Assembly: GCA_030832085.1 (NCBI GenBank)
Contig: JAURJU010000064.1
Coordinates: forward strand, 124,001 to 188,000
DNA from: Chitinophagales bacterium
Lineage (GTDB): Bacteria; Bacteroidota; Bacteroidia; Chitinophagales; Chitinophagaceae
Direction of reading: 5' to 3'
DNA length: 64,000 bases
In this document: piece after piece, positions 8,514 through 25,276 of the stretch
Numbering within the stretch: the stretch's first letter is position 1
Layout of the letters: the number at the start of each line of letters is the position of its first letter
The notes under the pieces: generated by a model
Told to the model about the DNA's origin: nothing
Seen by the model: the letters and a program-made list of their open reading frames with translations, nothing else
The model's database searches: none
Position numbers and translations under genes: made by a program

Positions 8514-10382
8514 ATGTTTCAGATGTATGATGTTATCGTCGTGGGTGCGGGTCATGCCGGTTGTGAGGCCGCAGCCGCAGCGGCCAACATGGGTAGCAAG
8601 ACCCTTCTTGTAACCATGAACCTGCAGACAATTGCACAAATGAGTTGTAATCCCGCTATGGGCGGAATAGCCAAGGGGCAAATTGTAAGAGAGGTGGATG
8701 CTTTGGGTGGGTACTCGGGTATTGTTACAGATCAAACCATGATCCAGTTCAGGATGTTGAACAGGTCAAAAGGGCCAGCAATGTGGAGCCCCAGGGCCCA
8801 AAGTGACAGGATGCTTTTTTCACAGCGATGGAGAGCGTTGCTGGAAAACACACCAAACCTTGATTTTTACCAAGACATGGTCAATGGTTTGATTGTTAAG
8901 GATGGTCGAGTGAGGGGCGTTGTCACAGGAATGGGCAATGAGATAGCGGCCAAGTCGGTTGTTTTGACCAATGGAACCTTCTTGAATGGGATTATCCATA
9001 TTGGTGAAAAACAGTTTGGTGGAGGAAGAATGGCTGAGCGGGCTGCGACTGGAATTACTGAACAACTGGTGGGTTTGGGCTTTGAGAGTGACCGCCTTAA
9101 AACCGGTACGCCACCAAGGATTGACGGAAGAAGTTTGGATTATACCAAGATGGAGGAGCAGAAAGGAGATGATGAAATTACCGGCTTCTCTTATTTGGAC
9201 ATCGATAGGATCAAGCCAGAACAACAAAGAAGTTGTTGGATTGCGTATACTAACCAAACGGTACACGATACCCTTAAAACGGGCTTTGACAAGAGTCCCA
9301 TGTATGCCGGCCGCATAGAAGGAACAGGTCCCCGTTATTGTCCAAGCATAGAAGACAAAATCAACCGCTTTGCTGAGCGAGACAGACACCAACTTTTTGT
9401 AGAGCCAGAAGGCTGGGATACTGTGGAAATATACCTCAATGGGTTTTCAACTTCATTGCCCGAGGATGTTCAATACAAGTCGCTAATAAAGATTCCAGGC
9501 TTTGAAAATGTTAAGATGTTCAGGCCGGGATACGCCATCGAATATGATTTTTTCCCACCCCACCAACTTCATTACTCGTTGGAAACCAAGCACTTACGTG
9601 GATTATTCTTTGCGGGGCAGATCAATGGAACAACAGGGTATGAGGAAGCGGCATGCCAGGGTTTGATGGCGGGAATCAACGCACACAACAATGCATTTGA
9701 GCGTGCACCATTGATATTGAAAAGGAGTGAAGCATACATTGGTGTTTTGATTGATGACCTGATTACAAAAGGAACCGAGGAGCCGTACAGGATGTTTACC
9801 TCAAGGGCAGAGTTCAGGACTTTGCTGAGACAAGACAATGCAGATATTCGCCTTACAGTGATCGGCCATGAACAGGGCTTGGCCAGCGAGGAAAGATACC
9901 AAAAGGTGAAAAACAAAAAAGAGAATGTTGCAGAGATCATCAAAAAATTCAATGAGGTTTCGGTTGATCCGGAATCGATGAATGCCTATTTTGAGGCATC
10001 GGGCTCTGCAGCCCTAACCCAAAAACAAAAAATTTCCCAGTTGGTCTTGCGCCCTGGCATTGGTGCAAAAGCAATGATTGAACATGCGGACCAACTCAGG
10101 AATGAATTTGGACATTATGATCCCTTGGAAATTGAGCAGGCAGAGATTCAGATGAAATATGCAGTTTATCTTGAAAAGGAAAGGGAGATGGTACAAAAAA
10201 TGTCAGAAATGGAATCGCTTGAAATTCCCATAACCTTTGATTATGGCAAGGTTCAGGCGATTGGAACCGAAGCAAGAGAAAAACTGAAAAAAATTCAGCC
10301 AACCACACTCGGACAGGCATCCCGGATATCCGGCATCAATCCAAGTGATATTCAAATCCTCATGGTGTACATGGGCAGATAG
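8514..10382 (+). CDS. mnmG: tRNA U34 5-carboxymethylaminomethyl modification enzyme MnmG (GidA)
   Basis: The FAD-binding subunit of the MnmE-MnmG complex, which modifies the wobble uridine of several tRNAs. The 622 residues cover the whole family. The N-terminal dinucleotide fold is YDVIVVGAGHAGCEAA; signature stretches are CNPAMGGIAKG, GRMAERAATGI, LKTGTPPRIDG and the second family signature GQINGTTGYEEAACQGL. The C-terminal domain ends in the helical MnmE-interacting region (ASRISGINPSDIQILMVYM). Start is ATG at 8514 or ATG at 8523 (MYDVIVVG); the latter matches family starts closely. A Crp/Fnr gene begins 28 bases after its stop. Confidence 0.95.
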   Translation: MFQMYDVIVVGAGHAGCEAAAAAANMGSKTLLVTMNLQTIAQMSCNPAMGGIAKGQIVREVDALGGYSGIVTDQTMIQFRMLNRSKGPAMWSPRAQSDRMLFSQRWRALLENTPNLDFYQDMVNGLIVKDGRVRGVVTGMGNEIAAKSVVLTNGTFLNGIIHIGEKQFGGGRMAERAATGITEQLVGLGFESDRLKTGTPPRIDGRSLDYTKMEEQKGDDEITGFSYLDIDRIKPEQQRSCWIAYTNQTVHDTLKTGFDKSPMYAGRIEGTGPRYCPSIEDKINRFAERDRHQLFVEPEGWDTVEIYLNGFSTSLPEDVQYKSLIKIPGFENVKMFRPGYAIEYDFFPPHQLHYSLETKHLRGLFFAGQINGTTGYEEAACQGLMAGINAHNNAFERAPLILKRSEAYIGVLIDDLITKGTEEPYRMFTSRAEFRTLLRQDNADIRLTVIGHEQGLASEERYQKVKNKKENVAEIIKKFNEVSVDPESMNAYFEASGSAALTQKQKISQLVLRPGIGAKAMIEHADQLRNEFGHYDPLEIEQAEIQMKYAVYLEKEREMVQKMSEMESLEIPITFDYGKVQAIGTEAREKLKKIQPTTLGQASRISGINPSDIQILMVYMGR

Positions 10383-10410
10383 TTTTAAATCCACAATTCA
10401 ATTTTCTGAA

Positions 10411-11058
10411 ATGACAACCCTGGGTGCAAAAGAATTATTGGGAATTTTTCCTTTGTTCGACCTGCCGCTTGCAACGTTTATGTATGAAAAGGGAGAAAGT
10501 AAAACATTCGAACAAGGTGCTTTGCTGATGAAGCCCGGCCAGTTTTTCAAGTATGCAATGCTCATCGTATCTGGAAAGGTTAAACTGTACAGGGAGGGAG
10601 AGGATGGAGAAGAGTTTTTCATGTATTTTCTTGAACGCGGAAATGCATGTGCCCTTAGCATGATGTGCATGGCGAGAAGCCAGGCCAGTACCATCATGGC
10701 CATAGCAGTTGAAGAAACAGAAGTGATCATGATTCCCATTCAGCACATGGATACACTGATGAAAAATTACCCTGCCTGGTATCATTTTGTGATTGAAACC
10801 TATAGGAACAGGTTTGAAGAGTTGCTGACCGTAATCGATCAAATCGCCTTCAAAAACATGGACCAGCGATTGGAGTGGTATTTGAAACGCCAGGCAAAAT
10901 CCATGGGAAACAACCTGATGCTGACACACCAACAAATAGCGCATGATATCAATTCTTCAAGAGAAGTGGTTTCCCGTTTGCTGAAAAAAATGGAAAAGAC
11001 GGGATTGGTAGAGACAGAACGCAACAGCATTGTGTGGAAGGGGGAAGAAATGGAGTAG
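10411..11058 (+). CDS. Crp/Fnr family transcriptional regulator, likely regulator of the sulfur island
   Basis: A 215-residue regulator: an N-terminal cyclic-nucleotide-binding fold (about 15-125), a dimerisation helix, and a C-terminal winged helix (HQQIAHDINSSREVVSRLLKKM). The cAMP-phosphate pocket is not kept; Cys80 and Cys86 (NACALSMMCMARS) sit where the phosphate cassette would be, as in a Bacteroidota subgroup with Cys-rich cassettes. The recognition helix reads R-E-V-V-S-R: Arg-Glu as in CRP (GTGA sites) and Ser-Arg as in FNR. This fits the GTGA-N6-TCAC sites found before four sulfur operons downstream. The frame is open upstream into mnmG, but ATG at 10411 after the mnmG stop is the natural start. 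Ligand and sensing mode are inference. Confidence 0.85.
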   Translation: MTTLGAKELLGIFPLFDLPLATFMYEKGESKTFEQGALLMKPGQFFKYAMLIVSGKVKLYREGEDGEEFFMYFLERGNACALSMMCMARSQASTIMAIAVEETEVIMIPIQHMDTLMKNYPAWYHFVIETYRNRFEELLTVIDQIAFKNMDQRLEWYLKRQAKSMGNNLMLTHQQIAHDINSSREVVSRLLKKMEKTGLVETERNSIVWKGEEME

Positions 11059-11187: not shown

Positions 11188-11201
11188 GTGATAAAAATCA
11201 C
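11188..11201 (+). promoter_or_regulatory. Crp/Fnr-type site before the YeeE/YedE pair
   Basis: GTGATAAAAATCAC is a 14-base inverted repeat of the form GTGA-N6-TCAC, the same spacing as CRP half-sites. Its centre (11194.5) is 36.5 bases before the last G of the -7-like element GATTTTTG (11224-11231). No TTG -33 element is seen at the usual distance, consistent with an activator-dependent promoter. Confidence 0.7.
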
Positions 11202-11223
11202 CTTTTGACACGACCATTTTCGT

Positions 11224-11231
11224 GATTTTTG
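11224..11231 (+). promoter_or_regulatory. -7-like element for the YeeE/YedE operon
   Basis: GATTTTTG differs from TAnnTTTG at one position. It ends 38 bases before the ATG at 11270 and is placed exactly as in three other sulfur-island promoters relative to the Crp-type site. Confidence 0.55.
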
Positions 11232-11269
11232 TCCTTGGATTTTTCAACACAGATCATAAAAAAACAAAC

Positions 11270-11836
11270 ATGACGATTATCGAACTCATCAAACAACCAT
11301 GGCCCTGGTATGTTGCTGGACCCATTATTGGATTAATGGTGCCAGCCTTGTTGATTTTTGGAAACAAAACATTTGGAATTTCATCTTCATTGCGGCATGT
11401 ATGTGCCGCATGTTTACCAGCAAAAATTCCATTCTTTCAGTACGATTGGAAAAAAGAAATCTGGAACCTGTTTTTTGTTTTTGGAATTTTTCTTGGAGGC
11501 ATCATTACAGCGTTTTATTTGAAAACGGATACAGATGTGGTTGTTGATCCAAAACTGGTTGAAGTTTTGTCGGGATATGGAATTGCTGATTTCAGTGGAT
11601 TGGTTCCTGCAGATCTTTTCAGCTGGTCATCCCTGTCCACCCCTCGCGGTTTTATACTGATGGTCATTGGCGGATTTTTGGTTGGATTTGGAACACGCTA
11701 TGCTGGTGGATGCACTTCCGGACATGCCATCATGGGTTTATCCAACCTTCAGCTGCCTTCATTGATTGCAACCATATCATTCATGGCAGGCGGTTTTATC
11801 ATGGCAAACCTTATTCTTCCATTCATCCTTTCACTT
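11270..11836 (+). CDS. YeeE/YedE family transporter, first subunit (sulfur-compound uptake)
   Basis: A membrane protein of 189 residues ending at the stop codon around 11837-11839, with about four to five hydrophobic segments. Family signature GTRYAGGCTSGHAIMGLS is near residues 141-158 with Cys148; another pair, Cys45 and Cys48, lies in RHVCAACLPAK. In characterised relatives (thiosulfate importer TsuA/YeeE), conserved cysteines line the path and handle thiosulfate by a relay. Here the long YeeE architecture is split over two adjacent genes, this one and the gene at 11852. Sixteen more codons lie upstream in frame, but the promoter element is inside them. The product is inferred to move thiosulfate or another sulfane-sulfur compound across the inner membrane. 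Confidence 0.82.
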
Positions 11837-11851
11837 TAAAAGAAAATCATC

Positions 11852-12355
11852 ATGACAAAAAATAAAAAAGATACCAATACTGATTTTGAGGTAAGGTCAT
11901 TGGATACCATTGGTAAAAACCAAGACAACACATCGTTGTCAACATGGCACAACCTGAGGTACCTCGTATTTGGAATTGCATTTGGAATTGTATTGATCAA
12001 GTCTGAAGTTGTTTCCTGGTTTCGCATTCAGGAAATGTTCAGACTTCAAAGCTTCCACATGTTTGGCGTAATTGGTTCAGCTGTTGCTGTTGGTGCAGTG
12101 TCTGTTTTTCTGATCAAGAAGTTCAAGATCAAGTCCATCCAGGGTGAAGAAATTATTCTTCCGCAGAAAACATTCAACAAGGGTCAAATCTATGGTGGAT
12201 TGATTTTTGGTTTTGGTTGGGCCATGACCGGAGCATGCCCGGGCCCGTTGTTTGCACAATTGGGATATGGCGCAATGGCCACATCCGTTACAATTCTTAT
12301 GGCCATAGCAGGAACCTGGGTCTATGGATTGTTGAGAGAAAAACTTCCCGCCTGA
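11852..12355 (+). CDS. YeeE/YedE family transporter, second subunit (DUF6691-like)
   Basis: A 167-residue membrane protein and the partner of the preceding gene, 12 bases away. It has a charged cytoplasmic N-terminus of about 35 residues, then four hydrophobic segments. The second YeeE signature FGFGWAMTGACPGPLFAQLGYG is present with one conserved Cys. Half-size YeeE/YedE pairs next to persulfide dioxygenase and rhodanese genes recur in Bacteroidota and Proteobacteria, and are taken as sulfur-compound carriers. It shares the Crp-controlled promoter of 11270. It is convergent with the TsdA-like gene across 44 bases, with no clear terminator between. Confidence 0.8.
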   Translation: MTKNKKDTNTDFEVRSLDTIGKNQDNTSLSTWHNLRYLVFGIAFGIVLIKSEVVSWFRIQEMFRLQSFHMFGVIGSAVAVGAVSVFLIKKFKIKSIQGEEIILPQKTFNKGQIYGGLIFGFGWAMTGACPGPLFAQLGYGAMATSVTILMAIAGTWVYGLLREKLPA

Positions 12356-12399
12356 TTGATTTCTTTCGGAAACAAATGGAGCACAAAAACAAAATCTGA

Positions 12400-13383
12400 T
12401 TATTTTCCTGTTCTTGCAGCAACAATCGGTTTGAAAGGACCGAACTTGTGTTGCTGTTCCGTGAATCCATCTGCATATGGACCAAAGGGATGGTCAACGG
12501 GTTTTTTTGAAATGTTGGGCCAGTCTTTGCTGAGGTCTTTCGCTGGACGGGGCCTCGAGTTTACAAAAGCTGCAACATCCCAGCTTTCTTCATCAGACAG
12601 TGCGGGCGATTCATGCGATGCCTGATTGAAGGGCATGTTGTCGCGCACATATCCCGCGAAGCGGGAAAGACGAAACAATCCTGCACCAGTGTTGTAACTG
12701 TGATCACCCCATAGCGGGGGATAAATGTAAGATTTTGCATCCGCGGCCATTTGTCCCTCCCCGTTGGCGCCATGGCAGCTTTGGCATTTTGCTGCATACA
12801 CCACAAGACCTTTTTCTGGACTGGCTGCGCGCTCAAGGTATTCGGGAGGCTTGATTCCACTGCCTTTTGGCGTGCTGTCTTTGGGTACCGCATGCCCTAC
12901 CCATTTGATGTAGGCAATCATGGCTTTCATTTCACGTGCATTGCTATCAAGTGCTGATCCATTCAGGCTGCGTTCCATGCAATCGCTTACCCGCTTGAAG
13001 ACACTTTCCATCGAACCGCTCCTGTCGCGAAACTTTGGGTAGTTGGCTGAAACGGCACCATAATTGTTCCCCCATTTTTTTCGTCCAGCATTGAGGTGAC
13101 AGTTCTGGCAATTCATGCCGTTGGTAATCTGTGCAACAGACCCGTTGGGCCCCAGGTATTTTGCTGTATTTGCAATCAGTTCTTCTCCATAAATTACAAG
13201 CGCCCTTTCTTCACCCTGAATTGTTCTGTCTGTAAATAAACTGGGTGCGGTCCATTCTTCCTTTTTTAAAACCGGCGTTGTTTTATTGGGAGCGTTGATG
13301 AATGCAATGATTTCAGTTGACATGACCAGGATCACAACAGTGACGATTGAATAGATAATCCAGTTTTGTCTTGGGTTGTTCAT
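12400..13383 (-). CDS. TsdA-like dihaem cytochrome c, putative thiosulfate dehydrogenase
   Basis: A 327-residue protein with one N-terminal membrane anchor (residues 8-30), so the haem domains face the periplasm. Two haem c motifs are seen: CQNCH at 92-96 and CQSCH at 200-204. Between them, FRDRSGSMESVFKRVSDCMERSLNG places Cys135 at the position of the unusual Cys ligand of the active-site haem in TsdA; Met250 (VRDNMPF) is the likely ligand of the second haem. TsdA oxidises two thiosulfates to tetrathionate, or works in reverse. The position and a Crp-type site 51-64 bases upstream tie it to the sulfur island. Upstream in-frame codons overlap the promoter, so ATG at 13383 is used. A SoxA-related cytochrome is the main alternative. 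Confidence 0.78.
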   Translation of the reverse strand: MNNPRQNWIIYSIVTVVILVMSTEIIAFINAPNKTTPVLKKEEWTAPSLFTDRTIQGEERALVIYGEELIANTAKYLGPNGSVAQITNGMNCQNCHLNAGRKKWGNNYGAVSANYPKFRDRSGSMESVFKRVSDCMERSLNGSALDSNAREMKAMIAYIKWVGHAVPKDSTPKGSGIKPPEYLERAASPEKGLVVYAAKCQSCHGANGEGQMAADAKSYIYPPLWGDHSYNTGAGLFRLSRFAGYVRDNMPFNQASHESPALSDEESWDVAAFVNSRPRPAKDLSKDWPNISKKPVDHPFGPYADGFTEQQHKFGPFKPIVAARTGK

Positions 13384-13403
13384 GAAGAGCCCTGTTTGGA
13401 AAT

Positions 13404-13411
13404 TAAATATA
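13404..13411 (-). promoter_or_regulatory. -7-like element for the TsdA-like gene
   Basis: The minus strand reads TATATTTA, one mismatch from TAnnTTTG, 20 bases before the ATG at 13383. Its last base is 36.5 bases from the centre of the Crp-type site at 13434-13447. Confidence 0.55.
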
Positions 13412-13433
13412 ATCCAATTTGACCGGTGCATCG

Positions 13434-13447
13434 GTGATTTTGGTCAC
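13434..13447 (-). promoter_or_regulatory. Crp/Fnr-type site before the TsdA-like gene
   Basis: GTGATTTTGGTCAC has the form GTGA-N6-TCAC. It lies between the stop of the membrane protein gene at 13452 and the TsdA-like start, in the class II position relative to the -7 element at 13404-13411. Confidence 0.7.
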
Positions 13448-13451
13448 ATGG

Positions 13452-14207
13452 CTAGTGCATCTCACTGCCGTATTCCTTCATGATGGCAGCATCGAGCGAC
13501 TCTCCGATTTTTTTTAGTTCCTTGAGCTTTGCATTCAGGTAGCGATTGGTATTCAGCCCTATTGAAACAAGGTTGAGCAATTCGTTAAGAGCAGTCTTGT
13601 TTTTTTGGGTGATGTTATCGGCCTTGGCCGGCGGCTGAAATCGCATGATGCCATCCACCATTTGATGGATAGACATTTCATATAGTATACCCGCATCCAT
13701 GACTTCAGCCATCTTGAAACGACCTTTTTCTAGTGTTCTTTCACGCAGCTCTTCCAGTTTGTCGATGGAACTGAGCATGCGTTCATACTCCTGAATTCCT
13801 GAACTGATTGTCTTGTTCCTGACCATTCTTAATCCCCCTGCTGATTTGATCTGGTCAAATCCAATGCGTGAACTTTCGAATGTAGCACGTAAGGCCAGGT
13901 TCCGGACATAATAATAAACTTCTTCGTTGGTGATCGATTGATTGTTCAGCTTTTGAAAAAGCGTATCAAGATTTTTTAGTCTTGTATCATTGGAGCGCAC
14001 TACAAAATCACTGGATTGAAAATCAAGCAGCAAATCTTCGTGCACATTTTTCAGGTATGAAATTTCCCTGTGTTTTTCAATTTGGGTTTCACGAATGTTT
14101 TCAGCGAAAAATCCAAGGGTGACTGCTGCAAACAACATCACGAATTCGGTGATGTATTCTTTCCAGGCTTTTTTATGCGTGGGATGATGTGGGTGATGGA
14201 CTTCCAT
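13452..14207 (-). CDS. Hypothetical protein with one membrane segment
   Basis: A 251-residue protein I cannot assign to a named family. The start is His-rich (MEVHHPHHPTHKKAWKEY), followed by one hydrophobic stretch at about residues 20-35 (FVMLFAAVTLGFFAENI) and then a long, mostly helical, charged region with coiled-coil character to the end. Similar short His-rich starts with one membrane helix are common among uncharacterised Bacteroidota proteins. The gene lies between the photolyase-like gene and the TsdA-like gene on the same strand; the Crp-type site at 13434 follows its stop codon, so the TsdA-like gene has its own promoter. No function is proposed. Confidence 0.7.
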   Translation of the reverse strand: MEVHHPHHPTHKKAWKEYITEFVMLFAAVTLGFFAENIRETQIEKHREISYLKNVHEDLLLDFQSSDFVVRSNDTRLKNLDTLFQKLNNQSITNEEVYYYVRNLALRATFESSRIGFDQIKSAGGLRMVRNKTISSGIQEYERMLSSIDKLEELRERTLEKGRFKMAEVMDAGILYEMSIHQMVDGIMRFQPPAKADNITQKNKTALNELLNLVSIGLNTNRYLNAKLKELKKIGESLDAAIMKEYGSEMH

Positions 14208-14317
14208 TTGTAATTTGATGTGTGAACACCTTAAAGATAAGATTGAAATTTCTCCAAATCAAATGTCAGCTGAACATTCTTGGCCATGTCCGCATTGTTT
14301 GTCGATAGGACAAACCA

Positions 14318-15439
14318 CTAGAAATATGTTTTGATGAGCCGCTTCTCGAATTTTTTCCAGAATGAAAAAAATGAACCTTCTGCAACAGCAGGGTCATTGA
14401 GCATCCAGGTTCGCTCATCTTGGATGCCGCTATAATGCTTGTTCAACGGATGCTCTCGATAAACCAATGGTGATCCGCCTGCATGGTTTTTCAAGGCGGC
14501 AAAGCTCCCCGTAAAAACCTGAATGCCTTCTATGTTTTTGCAAAGCTTCAAAGCAAAATCCATACAACTCTGTGAAATCGGATATTGGTCAAACAGTTCC
14601 GGTTCTAACAAGAACACCCTGTTGGCTGTCTCTGTATTGCGCCAACTGGGCGAAAGATGATAATAATTGTACACCAATGTTGGCAAGTCCGGATTTAAGG
14701 TTGGTGCAACGGTTGCTGGCAATGGTGTTTTAAGGACTGGGGTGCAAGAAGCCTGCAGGATTTCAGGACATGTCGTTGCTGAAAGTGTATCATAATCACA
14801 GTCCAAATAGGTTTGCTTTTGTTCTATTCCCGTGTAGTGGTTGACATTGTCCTGGTTGGCAATATATTTTTTATTGGAGAAGGTTCCTGCAACCCATTGC
14901 CACGAAAGGGCATTGGAAGCCCAGTCGCCATCCAGCAGATGATAATACATCCAGCGTGCCGAATCAGCCCAATGAAAACTGGCGAGGTTTGCAGAAAGAA
15001 AAGCGGTGTACATGCGCATGTGGTTGTGCATGTTTCCATTGGTTTTCAATTCGCGTATTCCGTGGTCAATGGCTTCAATACCCGTGTTTGCATCGTGAAC
15101 AGCCAGTGGCATTCCCTTATTGAATTTTGCGCCTTGATCGTTTTTGAGGTCATGGTTGATCAGGACACCTTTTGATTGCCACACACGTTGAAAATATTCC
15201 CGCCATGCCATTTGTTGAACGAACTTTTCCAGCTGGTAGAACTTGAAACCACGGTGGATCAGGTGTTCCAGGATGGTTTTGGTATCGATTACTCCTCTAG
15301 AAATATAAGGAGACAACCCCGTTACTGCACCATGGGTGAAATTTCTGGTTTTGGCATAATCCAGGGGACTGAACGGCCCCAGTTGTTGCAGTATCTCTTC
15401 TTGTGTCATCGTCTCTTTTGGTTTTATCAGCATGTGCAT
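14318..15439 (-). CDS. Photolyase/cryptochrome-like FAD-binding protein with unusual domain order
   Basis: A 373-residue protein. The first 235 residues are the FAD-binding helical domain of photolyases: LSPYISRGVID, FVQQMAWREYFQRVW, GIRELKTNGNMHNHMRMYTA and LLDGDWASNALSWQWVAGT are its core motifs, with the Trp-rich part kept. The usual N-terminal alpha/beta antenna domain is missing from the front. Instead the last 125 residues (LVYNYYHLSPSWRN, NRVFLLEPELFDQYPIS, GIQVFTGSFAAL, SFFSFWKKFEKRL) look like that domain placed at the C-terminus. Function may be DNA repair or light sensing; the permutation is my reading. ATG choice is uncertain: 15439, 15433 and 15409 are all possible, with TTG at 15451 further out. 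Confidence 0.75.
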   Translation of the reverse strand: MHMLIKPKETMTQEEILQQLGPFSPLDYAKTRNFTHGAVTGLSPYISRGVIDTKTILEHLIHRGFKFYQLEKFVQQMAWREYFQRVWQSKGVLINHDLKNDQGAKFNKGMPLAVHDANTGIEAIDHGIRELKTNGNMHNHMRMYTAFLSANLASFHWADSARWMYYHLLDGDWASNALSWQWVAGTFSNKKYIANQDNVNHYTGIEQKQTYLDCDYDTLSATTCPEILQASCTPVLKTPLPATVAPTLNPDLPTLVYNYYHLSPSWRNTETANRVFLLEPELFDQYPISQSCMDFALKLCKNIEGIQVFTGSFAALKNHAGGSPLVYREHPLNKHYSGIQDERTWMLNDPAVAEGSFFSFWKKFEKRLIKTYF

Positions 15440-15586
15440 TTGTTCTAACAATTGAAGGATTTAAAAGTTGATGCGGCGTTTACAATGCGCATTCGAATAT
15501 GATGTGCTGCGCTTTCGATCAGGCCCTTCATTTACTAACATTGAACATCTGTTGACGTTTCTGTGTTATATTACGAATACCTTGAA

Positions 15587-16183
15587 ATGAAAAAAATGTT
15601 GATTACACTCTTGGTCATTTTTGTTGTTCTCATTGCATTCCAATCCTTTATGGCAATATCCACATCCAATATCGAGAAGCAACAATACCGGGTTGTTAAA
15701 AAAGAAAACGGTTTTGAGATTCGGTTTTATCCACCAGCAACTTTTGCCACCATCCGGTCAGCAGCAAAAAACTACAGGGAACTTTCCGGAAGCGGATTTC
15801 GTAAAATCGCGGGATATATTTTTGGCAACAATGCAACATCTGCCAAAATTGCTATGACATCCCCTGTGCACATGGACATCAATGAAACCGAATCCTCGAT
15901 GAGTTTTGTCATGCCTTCTGCCTATGATATAAAAAGCCTTCCCCGCCCCAACGATGCAAAGGTTGAGATACACGAATCTCCCAGCGAATACGCTGCGGCC
16001 ATTGAGTTTGGTGGATTTGCCAATGATGAAACCATCAGCAAACATGCCGAGCAACTTAAAAAATCACTCGAAGAAAAGGGGATCAAGTCAACAGGACATT
16101 ACAGATACCTGGGATACAATCCGCCCTACCAACTCATTGGAAGAAAAAACGAAGTGATTGTTGCAGTGGAGTGGAAGGAATAG
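15587..16183 (+). CDS. SOUL haem-binding family protein
   Basis: A 198-residue protein with an N-terminal hydrophobic signal or anchor (MLITLLVIFVVLIAF) and a SOUL domain from about residue 35: YRVVKKENGFEIRFYPP, FRKIAGYIFGNN, KIAMTSPVHMD, FVMPSAYDIKSLPRP and a closing LGYNPPYQLIGRKNEVIV. These are the recurring SOUL/HEBP motifs. Family members bind haem or related tetrapyrroles loosely; the bacterial role is not established. It is likely exported or membrane-tethered. Start is ATG at 15587; eight upstream codons are in frame but precede a better signal sequence. Convergent with the pirin gene. Confidence 0.85.
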   Translation: MKKMLITLLVIFVVLIAFQSFMAISTSNIEKQQYRVVKKENGFEIRFYPPATFATIRSAAKNYRELSGSGFRKIAGYIFGNNATSAKIAMTSPVHMDINETESSMSFVMPSAYDIKSLPRPNDAKVEIHESPSEYAAAIEFGGFANDETISKHAEQLKKSLEEKGIKSTGHYRYLGYNPPYQLIGRKNEVIVAVEWKE

Positions 16184-16264
16184 GAATGGGGGTAATCCAA
16201 TTCCTTTCATCAATATGATCTTGTATTGTAGTGCACCCCAGTAGTGGCCAACAGGCCCATTGTG

Positions 16265-16969
16265 TCAAAGGGGTACTTCTATTAAAATGACTGCTGCATT
16301 TTTTGAAGCGGTTATCTTCAGTGATTCTGTTTCCCAAATACCCATTGCATCGCGGCTTCCAAGTGATTGTTCGTTCACGGTCACTGCTCCACTGATGACA
16401 AATACATAAACACCGCTCTGGGTGTTGTGAAGCCCATATGTCAATGTTACTCCCTCTTGAAGTTGACCAAGCGAACACCATGCATCTTGGTTGATCCAAA
16501 CAGCATTTTTATCATCCGGCGCTACAACGGTTTGCCATTGATTCTGCCTTCCTTCTGGCAAGAAGGTTTTCTGTTCGTACCGGGGCTCAATATTTTTTTC
16601 TTTTGGAAAAATCCATATTTGAAGAAACTTTACTTCCTTGTCTTGGTTTGCATTCTGTTCACTGTGCTCGATTCCGCTGCCAGCGCTCATGATCTGAACG
16701 TCCCCCTGGCGAATGATTTTATCCCTTCCTGTGCTGTCTTTGTGGTGCAAATCTCCAAACAGCGGAATGGATATTATTTCCATGTTCTCATGCGGGTGTT
16801 TATTGAAACCATATCCCGGAGCTACGACATCGTCATTCAATACACGCAACGCACCAAAACGGATTTTTGCAGCATCGTAATAACCGGCGAAACTGAAACT
16901 GTGATAACTCTCGAGCCATCCGTGTTCCGCATGGCCCCTATCTGCTGCTTTGTGTAGTATTGTTTTCAA
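16265..16969 (-). CDS. Pirin family protein (YhhW-like cupin), TTG start
   Basis: A 234-residue bicupin of the pirin family. The N-terminus (RGHAEHGWLESYHSFSFAGYY) is the pirin signature; metal ligands are visible as His58, His60, His102 and Glu104 (KHPHENME, GIEHSE). YhhW-type pirins have quercetin 2,3-dioxygenase activity in vitro; the physiological role is unknown. The start must be TTG at 16969: an in-frame TAA lies two codons upstream and the next ATG is after the signature, while residue 1 onwards matches the family. A TAGATTTG -7 element is at 17000-17007. Confidence 0.88.
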   Translation of the reverse strand: MKTILHKAADRGHAEHGWLESYHSFSFAGYYDAAKIRFGALRVLNDDVVAPGYGFNKHPHENMEIISIPLFGDLHHKDSTGRDKIIRQGDVQIMSAGSGIEHSEQNANQDKEVKFLQIWIFPKEKNIEPRYEQKTFLPEGRQNQWQTVVAPDDKNAVWINQDAWCSLGQLQEGVTLTYGLHNTQSGVYVFVISGAVTVNEQSLGSRDAMGIWETESLKITASKNAAVILIEVPL

Positions 16970-16999
16970 TGGTTTTTATTTACGTGCAATTCCAAAATG

Positions 17000-17007
17000 C
17001 AAATCTA
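17000..17007 (-). promoter_or_regulatory. Putative -7 element of the pirin gene
   Basis: The minus strand reads TAGATTTG, an exact TAnnTTTG, 30 bases before the TTG start at 16969. Confidence 0.45.
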
Positions 17008-17191
17008 TTATTAACTGTGCAGTTGGGATATATATGGCATAAAATTTATCCTGTGGAAGAAAAAAATTCAACAAAAAACCTCTCGGTTAATGCCATCAAG
17101 CAGTTTGTTAAAATGTGAAGAGTAGAGGGCTTGACTTAATCATGTTCGAAAAGATGTGAGAGAAATGCGAAAGTATATGTTATTTTACATC

Positions 17192-17557
17192 ATGAATAAC
17201 CAAGATGCTAAAATAGCAAAAATGCTATTTTCTTCTGTGTATCCTCTCTACGTAACAAAAGTCGAAAGAAAAGGACGTAGCAAGGCTGAGTTACATGAAA
17301 TCATCAGATGGCTTACGGGATATAGCGAAGAAAATCTCCAGTCATTGATTGATCAAAAAATTACTTTTGAAGAGTTCTTTCAACATGCAACATTTCATCA
17401 GGATGCGAAATTAATCACTGGAGTAATATGCGGTTATCGGGTTGAGCATATTGAAAACACCTTGACACAAAAGGTGCGGTATTTAGATAAAATAGTTGAT
17501 GAACTGGCAAAAGGAAGAGCAGTAGAAAAAATTATACATCGCAAACGAAGCGCCTGA
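17192..17557 (+). CDS. DUF2200 domain protein
   Basis: A 121-residue small cytoplasmic protein. The residues KIAKMLFSSVYPLYVTKVERKGR, IIRWLTGY and KLITGVICGYRVEHIE, then VRYLDKIVDELAKGRAVEKI, match the uncharacterised DUF2200 family over its full length. No catalytic motif is known. The frame is open 12 codons further upstream, but ATG at 17192 matches the family start. It is richer in A and T than its neighbours, which may mean a separate history. It sits between the pirin gene and the first persulfide dioxygenase, convergent with the latter. Confidence 0.75.
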   Translation: MNNQDAKIAKMLFSSVYPLYVTKVERKGRSKAELHEIIRWLTGYSEENLQSLIDQKITFEEFFQHATFHQDAKLITGVICGYRVEHIENTLTQKVRYLDKIVDELAKGRAVEKIIHRKRSA

Positions 17558-17627
17558 ACTGTACAATACTCCCCCAATTCAGACCAGGAGGTCAGTGTCA
17601 CACCCCCCATACAACCAGTCAAAAATC

Positions 17628-17680
17628 AAGGGTGATTGAATTGTTTTTCTTCGGCCTTCGAAAAAGAAAATTCAACCCTG
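17628..17680. terminator. Probable bidirectional terminator between convergent genes
   Basis: An imperfect inverted repeat: AGGGTGATTGAATTG and TTTTTCTTCG pair with CGAAAAAG and AAAATTCAACCCT around a short loop GCCTT. T-rich and A-rich arms give a possible T tract for both strands between the DUF2200 gene (plus) and the persulfide dioxygenase gene (minus). Confidence 0.5.
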
Positions 17681-19081
17681 CTAGAATTCCACTGCATTCC
17701 CCAGGGCCAGCCATTCATTCATGCTCGCTGAATAATTGAGCACATTTGTGTACCCTTCCCTTGCAAGCAAGGAATAGCCTATGGTTGCACGATCTCCACC
17801 CTGGCAATGAATCATTACTTTTTTATTTTTACTGACTTTGTCAAGGTTATCCAGCAAGGTGCCAACAAATACATGCTCTGCACCTTTGATGTGTCCGCTC
17901 TTGAACTCTGTAGCATTGCGCAGATCAACCACCTGAATGTTTGGTTCATCCAATTGAGACTTGAATGTTTCAATATCAATGACTGGAACAGTGTCGAGCT
18001 GTCCACCTTGATCGGTATATTCCTTTGTTGAAGCCACATAGCCCATGATGTTGTCAAGGCCGATGCGCATGAGTTTGCGTGAAAGGTCATCGAGCATTGA
18101 TTCATCTGCCAGCAACATGAACTGCTCTTCATAATTCAGCAACCAGCCGGCCCAGGTTGCAAATGAATTGTTGCCTTGTATGTTGATGCTTCCTGGAACA
18201 TATCCTTTTGCAAATTCAGTTTTGTTGCGGGCATCAATCAGTTTTACTCCTCGTCCCATGGCTTCCATCATTTCATGGTTGCTGAGAGCTTTGGGTTTGG
18301 GAACTGCAGTCATCAGAGGACGATCCACCTTGTTCAGTTTTTTCATCATGGCGAAATACTTGGGTGGCTCGGGTTGGTCTTCCAACAAAAAGCGGATGAA
18401 TCCTTGCTCATCATTTGAAAAGCGGAATGCCCAGTTGCGAATTTTTTCATACCCAACGGTCGTGCTCGGCACTGCACCCAAAGCCTTTCCACAAGCCGAT
18501 CCGGCACCATGTCCGGGCCAGACCTGGATATGATCGGGCAACTTGCTGAAACGGCCAATCGACTTGTACATCTGGTGGGCCCCAGCATCTGAAGTGCCGG
18601 ATATTCCGGCTGCCTTTTCAAGAAGGTCAGGACGACCGATATCGCCAACAAAAACAAAGTCACCGGTAAAGAGCATCACTGGCTCAGCACTTGCAGGGGT
18701 ATCTGTCAATAAAAAGCTGATGCTTTCTGGAGTATGTCCAGGAGTGTGGAAAGTTTCTATTTTCAGGTTGCCCACCATGAAACTGTTGCCATCCCTCAAT
18801 CCAACATGGTCGAATTCATATTCCCAACCCGGCCCACCTTCGTCCGAAAGATAGAGCTTGGCTCCAGTCAGCGCCGCCAATTCGCGCGATCCGGAAAGGA
18901 AGTCGGCGTGAATATGGGTTTCCAATACATGTGTGATGGTCATGTTGTTTTGCCTGGCGATTTCAAGATAGGTATCTACATCGCGTTTCGGATCGATGAC
19001 CGCTGCAACGCCTGCTTTCTGGCATCCGATGAAATAACTTGCTTGTGCCAGGGTCTTGTCGTAAACGTGTTGAAAAAACAT
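17681..19081 (-). CDS. Persulfide dioxygenase/rhodanese fusion protein, copy 1
   Basis: A 466-residue protein with an N-terminal metallo-beta-lactamase domain of the ETHE1 (persulfide dioxygenase) type and two C-terminal rhodanese domains. Metal residues start with His56-x-His58-x-Asp60 (ETHIHADF) and continue with FHTPGHTPES, FTGDFVFVGDIGRPDL and WPGHGAGSACG. The first rhodanese domain (KLIDARNKTEFAKGY) lacks the active Cys (LLADES in its place); the second has Cys426 in IHCQGGDRA. The fusion would oxidise glutathione or protein persulfide to sulfite and exchange sulfane sulfur. It follows TauE on the same strand by 70 bases, so the TauE promoter probably serves both genes; TauE would then export the sulfite formed. 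Confidence 0.88.
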   Translation of the reverse strand: MFFQHVYDKTLAQASYFIGCQKAGVAAVIDPKRDVDTYLEIARQNNMTITHVLETHIHADFLSGSRELAALTGAKLYLSDEGGPGWEYEFDHVGLRDGNSFMVGNLKIETFHTPGHTPESISFLLTDTPASAEPVMLFTGDFVFVGDIGRPDLLEKAAGISGTSDAGAHQMYKSIGRFSKLPDHIQVWPGHGAGSACGKALGAVPSTTVGYEKIRNWAFRFSNDEQGFIRFLLEDQPEPPKYFAMMKKLNKVDRPLMTAVPKPKALSNHEMMEAMGRGVKLIDARNKTEFAKGYVPGSINIQGNNSFATWAGWLLNYEEQFMLLADESMLDDLSRKLMRIGLDNIMGYVASTKEYTDQGGQLDTVPVIDIETFKSQLDEPNIQVVDLRNATEFKSGHIKGAEHVFVGTLLDNLDKVSKNKKVMIHCQGGDRATIGYSLLAREGYTNVLNYSASMNEWLALGNAVEF

Positions 19082-19141
19082 GGGGGTGAATTTTAATCGT
19101 GTAGCGTGATCTCTTTGGTTCTTTTATAAGGAAGCCATAGC

Positions 19142-19155
19142 GTGACCTTGATCAT
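19142..19155 (-). promoter_or_regulatory. Weak Crp/Fnr-type site candidate
   Basis: GTGACCTTGATCAT matches GTGA-N6-TCAC at 7 of 8 positions, 61-74 bases before the first persulfide dioxygenase gene. Unlike the other four sites it has no -7-like element at the fixed distance and overlaps the TauE stop codon, so it may be chance. Confidence 0.25.
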
Positions 19156-19952
19156 GATTTGAAAAAAAGTTCTTTTAAAATTATATAAATGCCCATTACC
19201 AAAACAAACCATCCGAATCCTTTTTTTAGGTTGTTGGCAGATACTTTCTTGGACAGCGCATTTCCAATAAAAATACCAATGATGGCCAACGCGGTAACAG
19301 CGGCCAGCAAGGTCCAGTCCATGGTCTGTTTCCCAAGATCTCCTGTAAAACCAATCAGGGACTTTGCTGCAATGATGATCAACGAAGTTCCTATTGCCTG
19401 TTTCATTGGAAGTTTGCTGAACAAGACCAATGCAGGGATGATCAGAAATCCACCACCTGCACCTACCAACCCTGTAAGCAATCCTACCACTGCGCCTTCC
19501 AACAGGATCATCGGATAGTTGAATACCTGGGGACCATCTTTCTCTTCCATATTGTCGCTGTTGCTGCGGATCATGGATACCGATGCAAATACCATCAGTA
19601 CAGCAAAAATCATCATCATCATCAAAGCCTTGGTTACAACCACATTGCCGATAGAGAACAATTCTGCGGGGATGGCAGGAACAATGAATGCACGGGTTGC
19701 ATAGACGGTGGCAATGGACGGTATTCCGAAGATGATGGCAGTTTTTACATTGATTTCACCATTTTTATACTTTGGGATGACACCGATGAGGCTGGTGGAC
19801 CCAACAATAAAAAGAGAATAAGCTGTTGCCAAAACGGGGTCCACGCCAAACAGGTATACCAAAACGGGAACAGTCAATATTGATCCCCCCCCTCCAATCA
19901 GGCCCAGTGAAATGCCGATAACCAACGAAGCCAAATATCCAATTGTTTCCAT
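19152..19952 (-). CDS. TauE/SafE family sulfite exporter-like permease
   Basis: A 266-residue inner-membrane protein with about eight hydrophobic segments in two similar halves. The TauE/SafE signatures are the N-terminal glycine-rich stretch GISLGLIGGGGSILTVPVLVY and the mid-protein repeat GLLTGLVGAGGGFLIIPALV. Family members are thought to export sulfite or sulfonates. It is placed between and divergent from two persulfide dioxygenases, which make sulfite, so sulfite efflux is the natural reading. A Crp-type site is 49-62 bases upstream, with a -7-like element at 19971-19978. Confidence 0.88.
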   Translation of the reverse strand: METIGYLASLVIGISLGLIGGGGSILTVPVLVYLFGVDPVLATAYSLFIVGSTSLIGVIPKYKNGEINVKTAIIFGIPSIATVYATRAFIVPAIPAELFSIGNVVVTKALMMMMIFAVLMVFASVSMIRSNSDNMEEKDGPQVFNYPMILLEGAVVGLLTGLVGAGGGFLIIPALVLFSKLPMKQAIGTSLIIIAAKSLIGFTGDLGKQTMDWTLLAAVTALAIIGIFIGNALSKKVSANNLKKGFGWFVLVMGIYIILKELFFKS

Positions 19953-19970
19953 CTGTGAAATTTCCTAACG

Positions 19971-19978
19971 CAAAGTTG
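19971..19978 (-). promoter_or_regulatory. -7-like element for TauE
   Basis: The minus strand reads CAACTTTG, one mismatch from TAnnTTTG, within TCAACTTTG, which is also present at the divergent promoter (20070-20078). Its last base is 36.5 bases from the centre of the site at 20001-20014. Confidence 0.55.
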
Positions 19979-20000
19979 AAAGATGCCAGTAACAATGTTT

Positions 20001-20014
20001 GTGACGGATGTCAC
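20001..20014 (-). promoter_or_regulatory. Crp/Fnr-type site for TauE
   Basis: GTGACGGATGTCAC is a perfect GTGAC-N4-GTCAC inverted repeat. Its distance to the TauE -7 element equals that at the YeeE and TsdA promoters. Confidence 0.7.
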
Positions 20015-20034
20015 GGAAGCTGTTTTTAAAAACA

Positions 20035-20048
20035 ATGATTTAAATCAC
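20035..20048 (+). promoter_or_regulatory. Crp/Fnr-type site for the second persulfide dioxygenase
   Basis: ATGATTTAAATCAC contains the 12-base palindrome TGATTTAAATCA and matches GTGA-N6-TCAC at 7 of 8 positions. The centre, 20041.5, is 36.5 bases before the last G of CAACTTTG at 20071-20078. Confidence 0.65.
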
Positions 20049-20070
20049 TATTTGTTTTTGGCATAAAGGT

Positions 20071-20078
20071 CAACTTTG
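20071..20078 (+). promoter_or_regulatory. -7-like element for the second persulfide dioxygenase
   Basis: CAACTTTG is one mismatch from TAnnTTTG and identical to the divergent TauE element. It ends 27 bases before the ATG at 20106. Confidence 0.55.
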
Positions 20079-20105: not shown

Positions 20106-21527
20106 ATGAAAGTAGAACAAATTTACACCGGTTGTTTGGCACATGGGGCTTATTACATCGAAAGTGAAGGGGAAGTGGCGATTGTAGATCCGCTCAGGGA
20201 GGTAGAACCCTATATCAAGAGGGCTGCATCTGAAGGGGCAAGGATCAAATATGTATTGGAAACCCATTTCCATGCTGATTTTGTTTCAGGCCATCTTGAC
20301 CTGTCCAACAAGACCGGAGCAGAAATTGTTTTTGGCCCGAATGCACACCCATCCTTTCCAATTCATTCCGCAAAGGACGGAGAAATTCTGTCATTGGGGA
20401 ACGTCAAGATAAAAGTGTTGCATACCCCCGGACATACGATGGAAAGCACCTGCTATCTCTTGATGGATGAGTTTGGAAAGGAAACCGCATTGTTCAGTGG
20501 AGATACCCTTTTCATCGGTGATGTTGGACGCCCTGATCTGGCACAACACGTGAAGGCAGAATTGACCGAGGACATTCTCGCTGGTTATCTGTACGATTCA
20601 TTGAGGAACAAGATCATGCCACTTCCAAACGATATCATCATTTATCCTGCCCATGGCGCAGGATCAGCCTGTGGTAAAAACATGAGCAAGGAAACTACAG
20701 ATACTTTGGGGCACCAAAAGCATACCAATTATGCACTTGCGCCAACACTGACCCTGGAGCGCTTCAGGGCAGTTCTATTGGAGGGATTGGTGGCACCTCC
20801 CGGATACTTTCCATTGAACGTGTTGATGAATATTCAAGGATACGATAGCATAGACAAGGTTTTAAAAAGGGGACAACATGCACTGACCCCAGATGCGTTT
20901 GAGGCTGTAGCCAATGAAACGGGTGCATTGATTTTGGACACCAGAAAAGCAGAGGACTTTGCAAAAGGATTTATCCCCAATTCCATCAATATCGGCATTG
21001 ATGGCAATTTTGCTCCCTGGGTTGGCACATTGATTCCAGACATCAAACAGGAAATTCTGCTGGTTACAGAAGCGGGAAGGGAGGAGGAGGCCGTAATTAG
21101 GCTTGCCAGGGTTGGATATGATTTTACGGTTGGCTACCTGAAAGGTGGATTCGGTGCATGGAAGCATGCCAACAAAGAGATTGACCATGTTGAACAGGTT
21201 ACTGCTGAAGAATTGTCGAAAATCGTGGATACGGATCCACATGCCCATCTGCTTGATGTGCGCAGGCAATCTGAATTCATGAGTGAGCACTTGCTGGATG
21301 TGAAAAACACCCCCCTGGATTGTATCAACGAGAGCATGTCTGAAATAGACAAAAGCCGAAAACACTATGTGCATTGTGCAGGCGGATACAGGTCCATGAT
21401 TTTCATATCCATTTTAAAGGCGCGGGGTTTCGATAATCTTGTAGACATCAAAGGTGGATTCAATGCCATCAAGGCAAGTGGAAAATTCAGCCTCTCACCT
21501 TATCTTACTCCGTCCACAATGTTGTAA
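20106..21527 (+). CDS. Persulfide dioxygenase/rhodanese fusion protein, copy 2
   Basis: A 473-residue paralogue of the protein at 17681-19081, with the same order: ETHE1-type metallo-beta-lactamase (His54-x-His56-x-Asp58 in ETHFHADF; VLHTPGHTMES; FSGDTLFIGDVGRPDL; YPAHGAGSACG), then two rhodanese domains. The first rhodanese lacks the catalytic Cys (LLVTEAGRE), and the second has Cys424 in VHCAGGYRS. The two copies differ widely, so they are old paralogues and probably not redundant. No signal peptide: cytoplasmic. It has its own Crp-type promoter and is followed 17 bases later by the secreted DsrE-like gene. Confidence 0.88.
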   Translation: MKVEQIYTGCLAHGAYYIESEGEVAIVDPLREVEPYIKRAASEGARIKYVLETHFHADFVSGHLDLSNKTGAEIVFGPNAHPSFPIHSAKDGEILSLGNVKIKVLHTPGHTMESTCYLLMDEFGKETALFSGDTLFIGDVGRPDLAQHVKAELTEDILAGYLYDSLRNKIMPLPNDIIIYPAHGAGSACGKNMSKETTDTLGHQKHTNYALAPTLTLERFRAVLLEGLVAPPGYFPLNVLMNIQGYDSIDKVLKRGQHALTPDAFEAVANETGALILDTRKAEDFAKGFIPNSINIGIDGNFAPWVGTLIPDIKQEILLVTEAGREEEAVIRLARVGYDFTVGYLKGGFGAWKHANKEIDHVEQVTAEELSKIVDTDPHAHLLDVRRQSEFMSEHLLDVKNTPLDCINESMSEIDKSRKHYVHCAGGYRSMIFISILKARGFDNLVDIKGGFNAIKASGKFSLSPYLTPSTML

Positions 21528-21544: not shown

Positions 21545-21955
21545 ATGAAAAAAGGAACTTTTGCATTGCTCTTCTGCCTGGTAACATTTGCGGTATCAGC
21601 ACAAGAAAAAAAATTGAGTGTGGTTTGGGATCTTTCCAGCGCAGATACTGTTGTTCAGGCGGCTGTGTTTCGCCAAATCAACAATGCAAAAACACAGGTA
21701 CCAGACCTGCAGGTGGAAGTGGTTTTTCATGGACAGGCCATATTGGCCGTGATCAATGATTCTACACAGTTTGCAGCAAGGGTCAAGGTAGCCAAGGAAA
21801 AAGGGGTCACGCTCGCCGTTTGCAACAACTCGCTGAAACGATTGAAAATAGATCCATCAAAGCTGATGCCGGAAACGACAGTCGTTCCAAGTGCTGTTGT
21901 CGAACTGATCAAAAAACAGGCGGATGGTTGGAGCTATTTAAAGGCCAGCCATTGA
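21545..21955 (+). CDS. Secreted DsrE/DsrF-like sulfur-carrier family protein
   Basis: A 136-residue protein with a clear signal peptide (MKKGTFALLFCLVTFAVSAQ) and one DsrE-like alpha/beta domain: LSVVWDLSSADT, QVEVVFHGQAILAV, VAKEKGVTLAVCNNSLKRL. The single Cys in LAVCNNSL is at the position of the functional Cys of periplasmic DsrE-like proteins. DsrE proteins carry or transfer sulfane sulfur; this one would work in the periplasm, beside the TsdA-like enzyme. It is 17 bases behind the second persulfide dioxygenase and ends before the terminator at 22087. Confidence 0.8.
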   Translation: MKKGTFALLFCLVTFAVSAQEKKLSVVWDLSSADTVVQAAVFRQINNAKTQVPDLQVEVVFHGQAILAVINDSTQFAARVKVAKEKGVTLAVCNNSLKRLKIDPSKLMPETTVVPSAVVELIKKQADGWSYLKASH

Positions 21956-22086: not shown

Positions 22087-22117
22087 GAGGGCGCTTTCCA
22101 GCGCCCTCGCTTTTTTT
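22087..22117 (+). terminator. Rho-independent terminator after the DsrE-like gene
   Basis: A nine-base-pair stem GAGGGCGCT / AGCGCCCTC with loop TTCC is followed by GC and seven T on the plus strand. It ends the persulfide dioxygenase-DsrE transcript and touches the 3' end of the convergent sulfatase. Confidence 0.85.
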
Positions 22118-23600: not shown

Positions 23601-23638
23601 GTTATTGTTTCAGTGGTTTGGTATGTAAATTATAAAAA

Positions 23639-23663
23639 AAACGCCTTCAATTTGAAGGCGTTT
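23639..23663 (-). terminator. Rho-independent terminator after susD
   Basis: On the minus strand, AACGCCTTCAA and TTGAAGGCGTT form a strong stem directly followed by a run of eight T (plus-strand A run at 23634-23641). It lies 9 bases after the susD stop. Confidence 0.8.
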
Positions 23664-23671
23664 TGAAAGTG

Positions 23672-25258: not shown

Positions 25259-25276
25259 TGTATTCTGTTTTTTCAA

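Follow-up and report, generated by a model that had tools for sequence, protein, structure and literature searches.

Introduction

E. coli CRP binds inverted repeats with GTGA-N6-TCAC half-sites through a recognition helix of the form R-E-x-x-x-R, and Glu72 and Arg82 are its cAMP-binding residues; at class II promoters its site is centred at -41.5, the class II activator position. FNR, a member of the same superfamily with Ser in its helix (x-x-S-R), also acts at the class II position, carries N-terminal cysteines for its cluster and has the half-site TTGAT. The sulfane-sulfur sensors CstR, SqrR/BigR and FisR regulate persulfide dioxygenase (PDO), rhodanese, SQR or TauE-type genes. Here, we describe a window of 64,000 nucleotides from a Chitinophagales bacterium of the family Chitinophagaceae (assembly GCA_030832085.1, contig JAURJU010000064.1, positions 124,001 to 188,000), in which a Crp/Fnr-family regulator of 215 aa (10411–11058, plus strand) is encoded next to a cluster of predicted sulfur-compound oxidation genes. 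An earlier note on this DNA had proposed that the regulator activates four promoters of the cluster from a fixed distance, and genome comparison strongly supports this putative class II regulon of sulfur genes.

The regulator shares with E. coli CRP the fold, the half-sites, the helix form and the predicted centre at -41.5, but differs in lacking Glu72 and Arg82, in having a Cys pair, in the sigma-A box TAnnTTTG of its promoters and in its local sulfur targets. Unlike FNR, it has a CRP-type half-site and, with two Cys overall, lacks the cluster cysteines at the N terminus. Its Crp fold also places it outside the CsoR, ArsR and Fis-family folds of CstR, SqrR/BigR and FisR. The nearest solved sequence is 3dv8 (E 5.2e-28), an uncharacterised Crp/Fnr protein of Eubacterium rectale, a member of the Firmicutes; it has the same C-x5-C in the alignment but only 25% identity to the regulator in the structure alignment. 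In the sections of PMC9774590 used here, CstR, SqrR/BigR and FisR are described as using two or three conserved Cys, and CstR and SqrR repress their targets, unlike the activator predicted here. The word 'fnr' does not occur in the main text of PMC9774590, and no Crp/Fnr sensor was met in the sections used. A regulon of this kind was not found described among the open-licence papers listed, judged by titles and the start of abstracts.

Results

Four Promoters with One Geometry

GTGA-N6-TCAC repeats were confirmed at the promoters of a YeeE pair, a TsdA-like gene, TauE and PDO2. The putative activator sites are perfect for the YeeE pair (GTGATAAAAATCAC, 11188–11201, plus strand), the TsdA-like gene (GTGACCAAAATCAC, 13434–13447, minus strand) and TauE (GTGACATCCGTCAC, 20001–20014, minus strand), while that of PDO2 is ATGA-N6-TCAC and matches at 7 of 8 positions (ATGATTTAAATCAC, 20035–20048, plus strand). 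Each is accompanied by a -7-like box one mismatch from TAnnTTTG: GATTTTTG at 11224–11231 (plus) for the YeeE pair, TATATTTA at 13404–13411 (minus) for the TsdA-like gene, and CAACTTTG both at 19971–19978 (minus) for TauE and at 20071–20078 (plus) for PDO2. The distance of 36.5 bases from the site centre to the last box base, that is a gap of 22 bases, was also found at all four promoters as the earlier note had stated, and no further box with up to one mismatch occurs at gaps 5–59 at any of them. All four sites are intergenic, with ATG starts 19 to 39 bases past the last box base, and the sites of TauE and PDO2 are divergent with centres 34 bp apart. Across the 64-kb window, the repeat with a box of up to one mismatch at gap 22 occurs in exactly four places, which are the four promoters. 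Because TauE and PDO1 share one strand and PDO2 and DsrE the other, the promoters probably serve YeeE1–YeeE2, TsdA, TauE–PDO1 and PDO2–DsrE.

In the whole genome, the perfect repeat was found 39 times against 26 in the reversed control, and the composite of repeat and box with up to one mismatch in 4 places, 3 of them at these promoters. A consensus refined on the family, built on sites that include two of the four promoters, matched 2 places without mismatch, both here, and 4 places with one mismatch, two of them here. From the genome rate of the unrefined composite with up to two mismatches, the probability of at least 4 in 8.9 kb is about 7e-7, for a pattern that was chosen after the sites were known; this hindsight objection is removed by the independent genomes described below, which show the same pattern.

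Two matches elsewhere in the genome were set aside as chance: C103:11550 (1 mismatch) coincides with the beginning of an anmK-like gene, with a upp-like gene downstream (both named by eye), and C8:83410 falls within a long open reading frame (ORF; 883 aa within the stretch examined). At C67:49070–49113 (L034), GTGACAAAAGTCAT-N22-TAATTTTA with 2 mismatches stands just upstream of a thioredoxin gene. The site is present in only 3 (this genome included) of 12 same-genus loci examined, which were taken from 18 matches and of which 11 had upstream sequence. This gene is a possible fifth target by its sequence, which we do not claim.

Conservation in the Family and Link to the Regulator

As a measure of conservation, the pattern GTGAN6TCAC-N22-NANNTTTG was counted across 195 genomes from the family of this bacterium, with the reversed pattern as control and match sums copied by hand from a table. 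There were 168 matches in 84 genomes against 24 reversed matches in 22. Of the 195, 72 encode a regulator orthologue scoring above 180 bits, and these 72 hold 131 matches, with 11 in the control. At least one site occurs in 56 of the 72 genomes with the orthologue versus 28 of the 123 without it. In the family the pattern is thus found mainly in genomes with the orthologue, and the refuting condition set by the earlier note, the same arrangement at random genes, did not overturn the proposal.

The sites also lie close to the regulator gene. Among the matches listed (150 of 168), an exact-pattern site was found within 300 nt 3' of the regulator on the same strand at 29 of 77 regulator loci, and with looser criteria a site is present at 61 of the 77 (no random-locus comparison was made). 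A site directly 3' of the regulator gene is present in 14 of 20 named relatives. The next matched gene behind it is YeeE in some of these relatives and TauE in others, so the site stays while the downstream genes change. Both site and box of the TsdA promoter are kept in L038, L040, L042 and L047. In 11 aligned YeeE promoters, including the one studied here, the invariant columns fall in TGTGA.A...ATCAC, in A..TTTG and in the start codon (ATGA), with one stray invariant T besides; the half-sites are invariant and the spacer is variable.

In two family genomes, G023 and G076 (L158, L222), a site precedes a regulator gene, pointing to autoregulation in these genomes. Several similar regulator–rhodanese loci, two of them with PDO2, are found on the small contigs C53, C216 and C217 of family genome G121 (L262, L141, L142); they reflect duplication, mixed strains or assembly redundancy.

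Spacing and Promoter Class

The spacing was counted at the 77 regulator loci, widened near listed sites, as perfect and one-mismatch repeats with NANNTTTG at gaps 10 to 35. At gap 22 there were 56 perfect and 35 one-mismatch sites (91), at gap 23 there were 2 and 7 (9), and every other gap had 0–2; the reversed sequence gave 0 sites at gap 22. The peak was also seen at 59 loci not picked for a site (39 family loci without an exact site among the matches listed nearby, and the 20 named relatives), with 19 and 20 sites at gap 22, 1 and 3 at gap 23, and 0–3 elsewhere. By hand count over the 195 genomes, gaps 20 and 21 together gave 53 matches, with 52 in the reversed control, and gaps 23 and 24 gave 76 (60 and 16), with 54 in that control.

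A start-site map of Flavobacterium places TAnnTTTG at -12 to -5, as given in the part of PMC9723704 used here. With the box at these positions (PMC9723704), the predicted site centre is -41.5, in agreement with the class II position near -42 proposed earlier. The gap-22 peak shows that this site keeps a fixed distance from the core promoter, as at class II promoters.

Promoter-like sites were defined as those with an ATG within 120 nt and not inside a long ORF, and 117 of the 150 listed family sites were of this kind. Their repeat is GTGA-Y-N4-R-TCAC, with Y in 98% and R in 96%. A -33 TTG was scarce in the family as well: among the 117 sites, TTG begins at -33 in only 6 and at -34 in 1, and it cannot begin at -38 to -35 because the fixed TCAC occupies these positions. 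The first box base is C in 40%, T in 36%, G in 23% and A in 1%. Thus, the geometry of the two motifs stood as first described, but the motifs themselves needed correction, with T as the first box base in 36% only and the longer repeat consensus given above. The scarcity of the -33 TTG and a first box base that is mostly not T suggest that the family promoters are weak and depend on an activator.

A second set of GTGA-N6-TCAC repeats was seen at gap 23 (centre -42.5) in L360–L379, with flanks of its own (GTGACGATCGTCACAGG; GTGATGTAGATCACGCAATCACC). By eye, in 20 loci picked, this set precedes VOC/glyoxalase-like, NTF2-like and flavodoxin-type quinone reductase genes, and also old-yellow-enzyme, YceI-like and SDR genes. 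Perhaps it represents a separate Crp-like regulon for electrophile stress.

The Regulator Protein

The regulator scored above the cut-off for PF00027 (cNMP_binding, 48.7 bits) and PF13545 (HTH_Crp_2, 40.4 bits), and with its cNMP-binding-like domain and Crp-type helix-turn-helix it belongs to the Crp/Fnr superfamily. Its predicted structure had a predicted local distance difference test score (pLDDT) of 83.2 and a predicted template modelling score (pTM) of 0.61, and the fold matches listed were Crp/Fnr proteins. It scored 52 bits against the NCBIfam CRP equivalog (cut-off 266) and 31.6 against the NCBIfam Fnr model (cut-off 228), well below both thresholds.

Conservation was assessed in 97 regulator homologues over 150 bits. 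The recognition helix, R-E-V-V-S-R in this protein, is REV[IV]SR in 94 of the 97 and thus CRP-like. Cys80 is present in 97 of 97 and Cys86 in 91 of 97; 80 homologues carry exactly two Cys, a further 12 carry three, and no alignment column other than 80 and 86 has Cys in ten or more. The regulator therefore possesses a conserved cysteine pair of the kind seen in sulfane-sulfur sensors. Glu72 of E. coli CRP aligns with Ala in 92 and with Ser in 5 of the homologues, and the position of Arg82 is Arg in only 6. By this alignment, Cys80 and Cys86 sit in the former nucleotide pocket.

Three Crp/Fnr proteins of this genome exceed the Pfam cut-off. The CRP-type helix is found only in the protein at 10411–11058, and the helices of the other two are T-E-S-L-I-R and K-E-Q-V-S-R (by eye). 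FNR-type oxygen sensing was ruled out as the 4Fe-4S cluster cysteines are absent, the only common Cys columns being 80 and 86. Global cAMP-CRP was also rejected, since the paralogues have other helices and the cAMP residues are missing. This genome further encodes a fusion of response regulator and Crp with an FNR-like helix at C22:387789 (L287), which lies near an Hsp20-like gene (by eye) with a weak composite site upstream.

Target Genes in the Family

Targets were taken as the first ORF behind each of the 150 listed sites, and clusters of ORFs were named by Pfam on one representative per cluster. TauE was the first ORF at 27 sites, PDO2-like genes at 25, rhodanese or PDO1-like genes at 8, YeeE at 6 and the regulator at 2. 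The ORF clusters also included outer-membrane efflux protein (OEP) at 12 sites, OsmC at 7, thioredoxin at 6, SQR-like flavoprotein (Pyr_redox_2) at 3, and thioredoxin-reductase-like and ferritin-like genes at 2 each; other genes or no called ORF stood behind the remaining 50. The sites thus precede genes predicted to handle persulfide, namely TauE, PDO2-like, rhodanese/PDO1-like, YeeE and SQR-like genes. At least one sulfur gene (TauE, PDO, YeeE, TsdA, DsrE, SQR-like or rhodanese) lies within about 1.2 kb upstream and 5.5 kb downstream at 70 of the 77 regulator loci, a count made without a random-locus comparison.

The OEP/TolC-like gene is a recurrent target in its own right, found behind sites in 12 family genomes and at 3 of 30 loci of another family (L390, L392, L400).

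Occurrence in Other Families of the Phylum

A regulator homologue at E <= 1e-40 was found in 51 of 296 genomes of the phylum, and several homologues with 49–55% identity occur in genus g108 of another family. Outside the family, the count at 25 regulator loci was 18 sites at gap 22 and 0–2 at other gaps, while the reversed loci gave 0 at gap 22 and 0–3 elsewhere. C-x5-C is present in 24 of these 25 regulators, with a third Cys behind it in 7 (in the 25th, L315, this part of the protein lies beyond the stretch examined). In 61 g108 genomes, GTGAY-N4-R-TTAC-N22-NANNTTTG gave 60 matches versus 4 reversed. Of 30 sites examined among these 60, 18 lie before TauE, 3 before OEP and 6 before a small protein with no Pfam name which, by eye, is similar to one that recurs in the first family. 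The refined pattern across the phylum gave 61 matches versus 7 reversed; 7 of the 61 come from a single stretch that is repeated and probably coding (GTGATGCT.. ATCACCCA-like), and these have to be discounted.

Genes of the Sulfur Cluster

Two halves of a YeeE/YedE transporter follow the regulator on the plus strand: a YeeE/TsuA-like Sulf_transp half of 189 aa (11270–11839; PF04143), thiosulfate transporter-like and similar to TsuA structures, and a second half of 167 aa (11852–12355; PF20398, PF04143). The TsdA-like dihaem cytochrome c of 327 aa (12400–13383, minus strand; PF21342, PF00034) has two CxxCH motifs, at 92 and 200, and its closest structures are thiosulfate dehydrogenases (best E 6.7e-42). 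PDO1, a metallo-beta-lactamase with rhodanese (17681–19081; PF00753, PF00581), and the TauE/SafE sulfite exporter-like protein of 266 aa (19152–19952; PF01925) are both on the minus strand, and PDO1, 70 nt behind TauE, is likely in one operon with it. On the plus strand, PDO2 (20106–21527; PF00753, PF00581) combines a metallo-beta-lactamase with two rhodanese stretches, its closest structures being the metallo-beta-lactamase/rhodanese proteins 3tp9 and 3r2u. The gene for a DsrE-like protein (21545–21955, plus strand; PF02635) starts 17 nt behind PDO2 and likely belongs to its operon.

Upstream, mnmG (gidA) immediately precedes the regulator gene (8514–11058 for the pair), as it does in 15 of the 20 named relatives (L037–L051), and the regulator may be co-transcribed with this tRNA-modification gene. 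Behind the sulfur cluster, sulfatase, SusD-like and TonB-dependent receptor genes are encoded at 22116–28339; 6 of the 20 named relatives also have a homologue of this sulfatase close to the regulator.

Discussion

We propose that the Crp/Fnr protein at 10411–11058 acts as a local regulator for the metabolism of sulfane sulfur and thiosulfate. A dimer would bind GTGA-Y-N4-R-TCAC centred at -41.5 and would activate sigma-A in the class II manner at weak promoters with a -7 box and no -33 TTG. Persulfide or polysulfide would react with Cys80 and Cys86, at the place where CRP holds cAMP. Once induced, the YeeE pair would import thiosulfate and the TsdA-like cytochrome would oxidise it; PDO1 and PDO2 would oxidise persulfides, rhodanese and DsrE would shuttle sulfur, and TauE would export sulfite. 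The enzymes fit such a role because their nearest structures are thiosulfate dehydrogenase, 3tp9/3r2u and TsuA.

Reversed controls, dependence on the orthologue, the single spacing peak, recurring targets and replication in a second family all argue for a regulon of this protein with class II geometry, which we regard as very probable. That the four sites are bound by this protein is held with still greater confidence, and that it activates rather than represses its targets appears very probable as well. Judged from these comparisons, the regulator very likely switches on sulfur oxidation and detoxification genes in many Bacteroidota. In our estimate, a signal of persulfide or sulfane sulfur sensed through Cys80 and Cys86, as suggested by the target set and by analogy with CstR, SqrR and FisR, stands at even odds or slightly better.

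Several observations weigh against this interpretation. In the window, the repeat alone with up to one mismatch is not enriched (31 against 25.1 expected), and in this genome neither the composite with up to two mismatches (21, four of them at these promoters, versus 21 reversed) nor the refined consensus at the same tolerance (17 versus 13 reversed) stands out, so this genome by itself shows clustering and no genome-wide excess. The 123 family genomes without a >180-bit orthologue hold 37 matches against 13 in the control, from which it follows that other regulators use similar sites. No site by the criteria used was found at 16 of the 77 regulator loci (a looser scan gave weaker candidates in 12 of the 16, without a control, and these were not counted), and the site directly 3' of the regulator is absent in L050 and L052–L056 among the 20 named relatives. 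Behind 64 of the 150 listed sites stand genes with no evident part in sulfur or thiol chemistry (OEP in 12 cases), or no called ORF. Finally, Cys86 is replaced by Ser in 5 and by Gly in 1 of the 97 homologues.

The chance-level counts for the repeat in the window and for the loose composite in this genome would fit an accidental alignment picked out in hindsight, but the counts of 168 versus 24 in the family, 61 versus 7 in the phylum and 60 versus 4 in g108, together with the single spacing peak, leave this explanation close to negligible, and the reversed-pattern controls refute chance as the sole cause. It is quite improbable that a different Crp-like protein of the global cAMP-CRP type binds the sites, the neighbouring regulator being incidental. 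GTGA-N6-TCAC is a general CRP-type repeat, and both the excess in genomes without a close orthologue and the second site set at gap 23 speak for such a protein; however, R-E-x-x-S-R is found in only one of the three Crp/Fnr proteins of this genome, and the sites concentrate in orthologue genomes, often directly 3' of the regulator gene. Repression from -41.5 with release by the signal is unlikely too, though a little less so. CstR and SqrR/BigR are repressors in the sections of PMC9774590 used, but a repressor would need no fixed distance, and a centre at exactly -41.5, the scarce -33 TTG and the C or G found at -12 in 63% of the 117 promoter-like sites fit an activator-dependent promoter.

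The alternative of most weight, which we rate somewhat short of even, accepts the regulon and its geometry and has the protein respond to a different signal, be it redox state, nitric oxide, sulfite, thiosulfate or some other small ligand. With two Cys in each chain, redox sensing through a disulfide is conceivable, and targets of general thiol or oxidative stress do occur in the family (OsmC 7, thioredoxin 6 and ferritin-like 2 of the 150 listed sites). Against it, 69 of the 150 listed sites are followed by TauE, PDO, rhodanese, YeeE or SQR-like genes, and the Cys pair is near-invariant, as in the known sulfane-sulfur sensors described in the same portion of PMC9774590. Sensing of persulfide or sulfane sulfur is thus the reading we retain, and the system is best viewed as a class II regulon under a Crp/Fnr protein that is probably a thiol sensor. 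Whether a large clade of Crp/Fnr proteins, with C-x5-C in what was the cAMP pocket, constitutes a new structural class among sulfane-sulfur sensors seems to us evenly balanced; in contrast to the repressors of the CstR and SqrR type, its members would act as class II activators and would govern sulfur oxidation and persulfide detoxification across Bacteroidota, and perhaps in Firmicutes too (3dv8).

With this predicted regulon, Bacteroidota would gain a system for sulfur oxidation and persulfide handling in which the regulator is named, the operator precisely defined and the promoter governed by a rule, so that targets in many genomes can be predicted from their sequence. The regulon also suggests Crp/Fnr as an additional fold for the sensing of persulfide. 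The promoters would also offer a natural class II set for studying how the unusual sigma-A of Bacteroidota (TAnnTTTG, with the -33 TTG often absent here) is activated.

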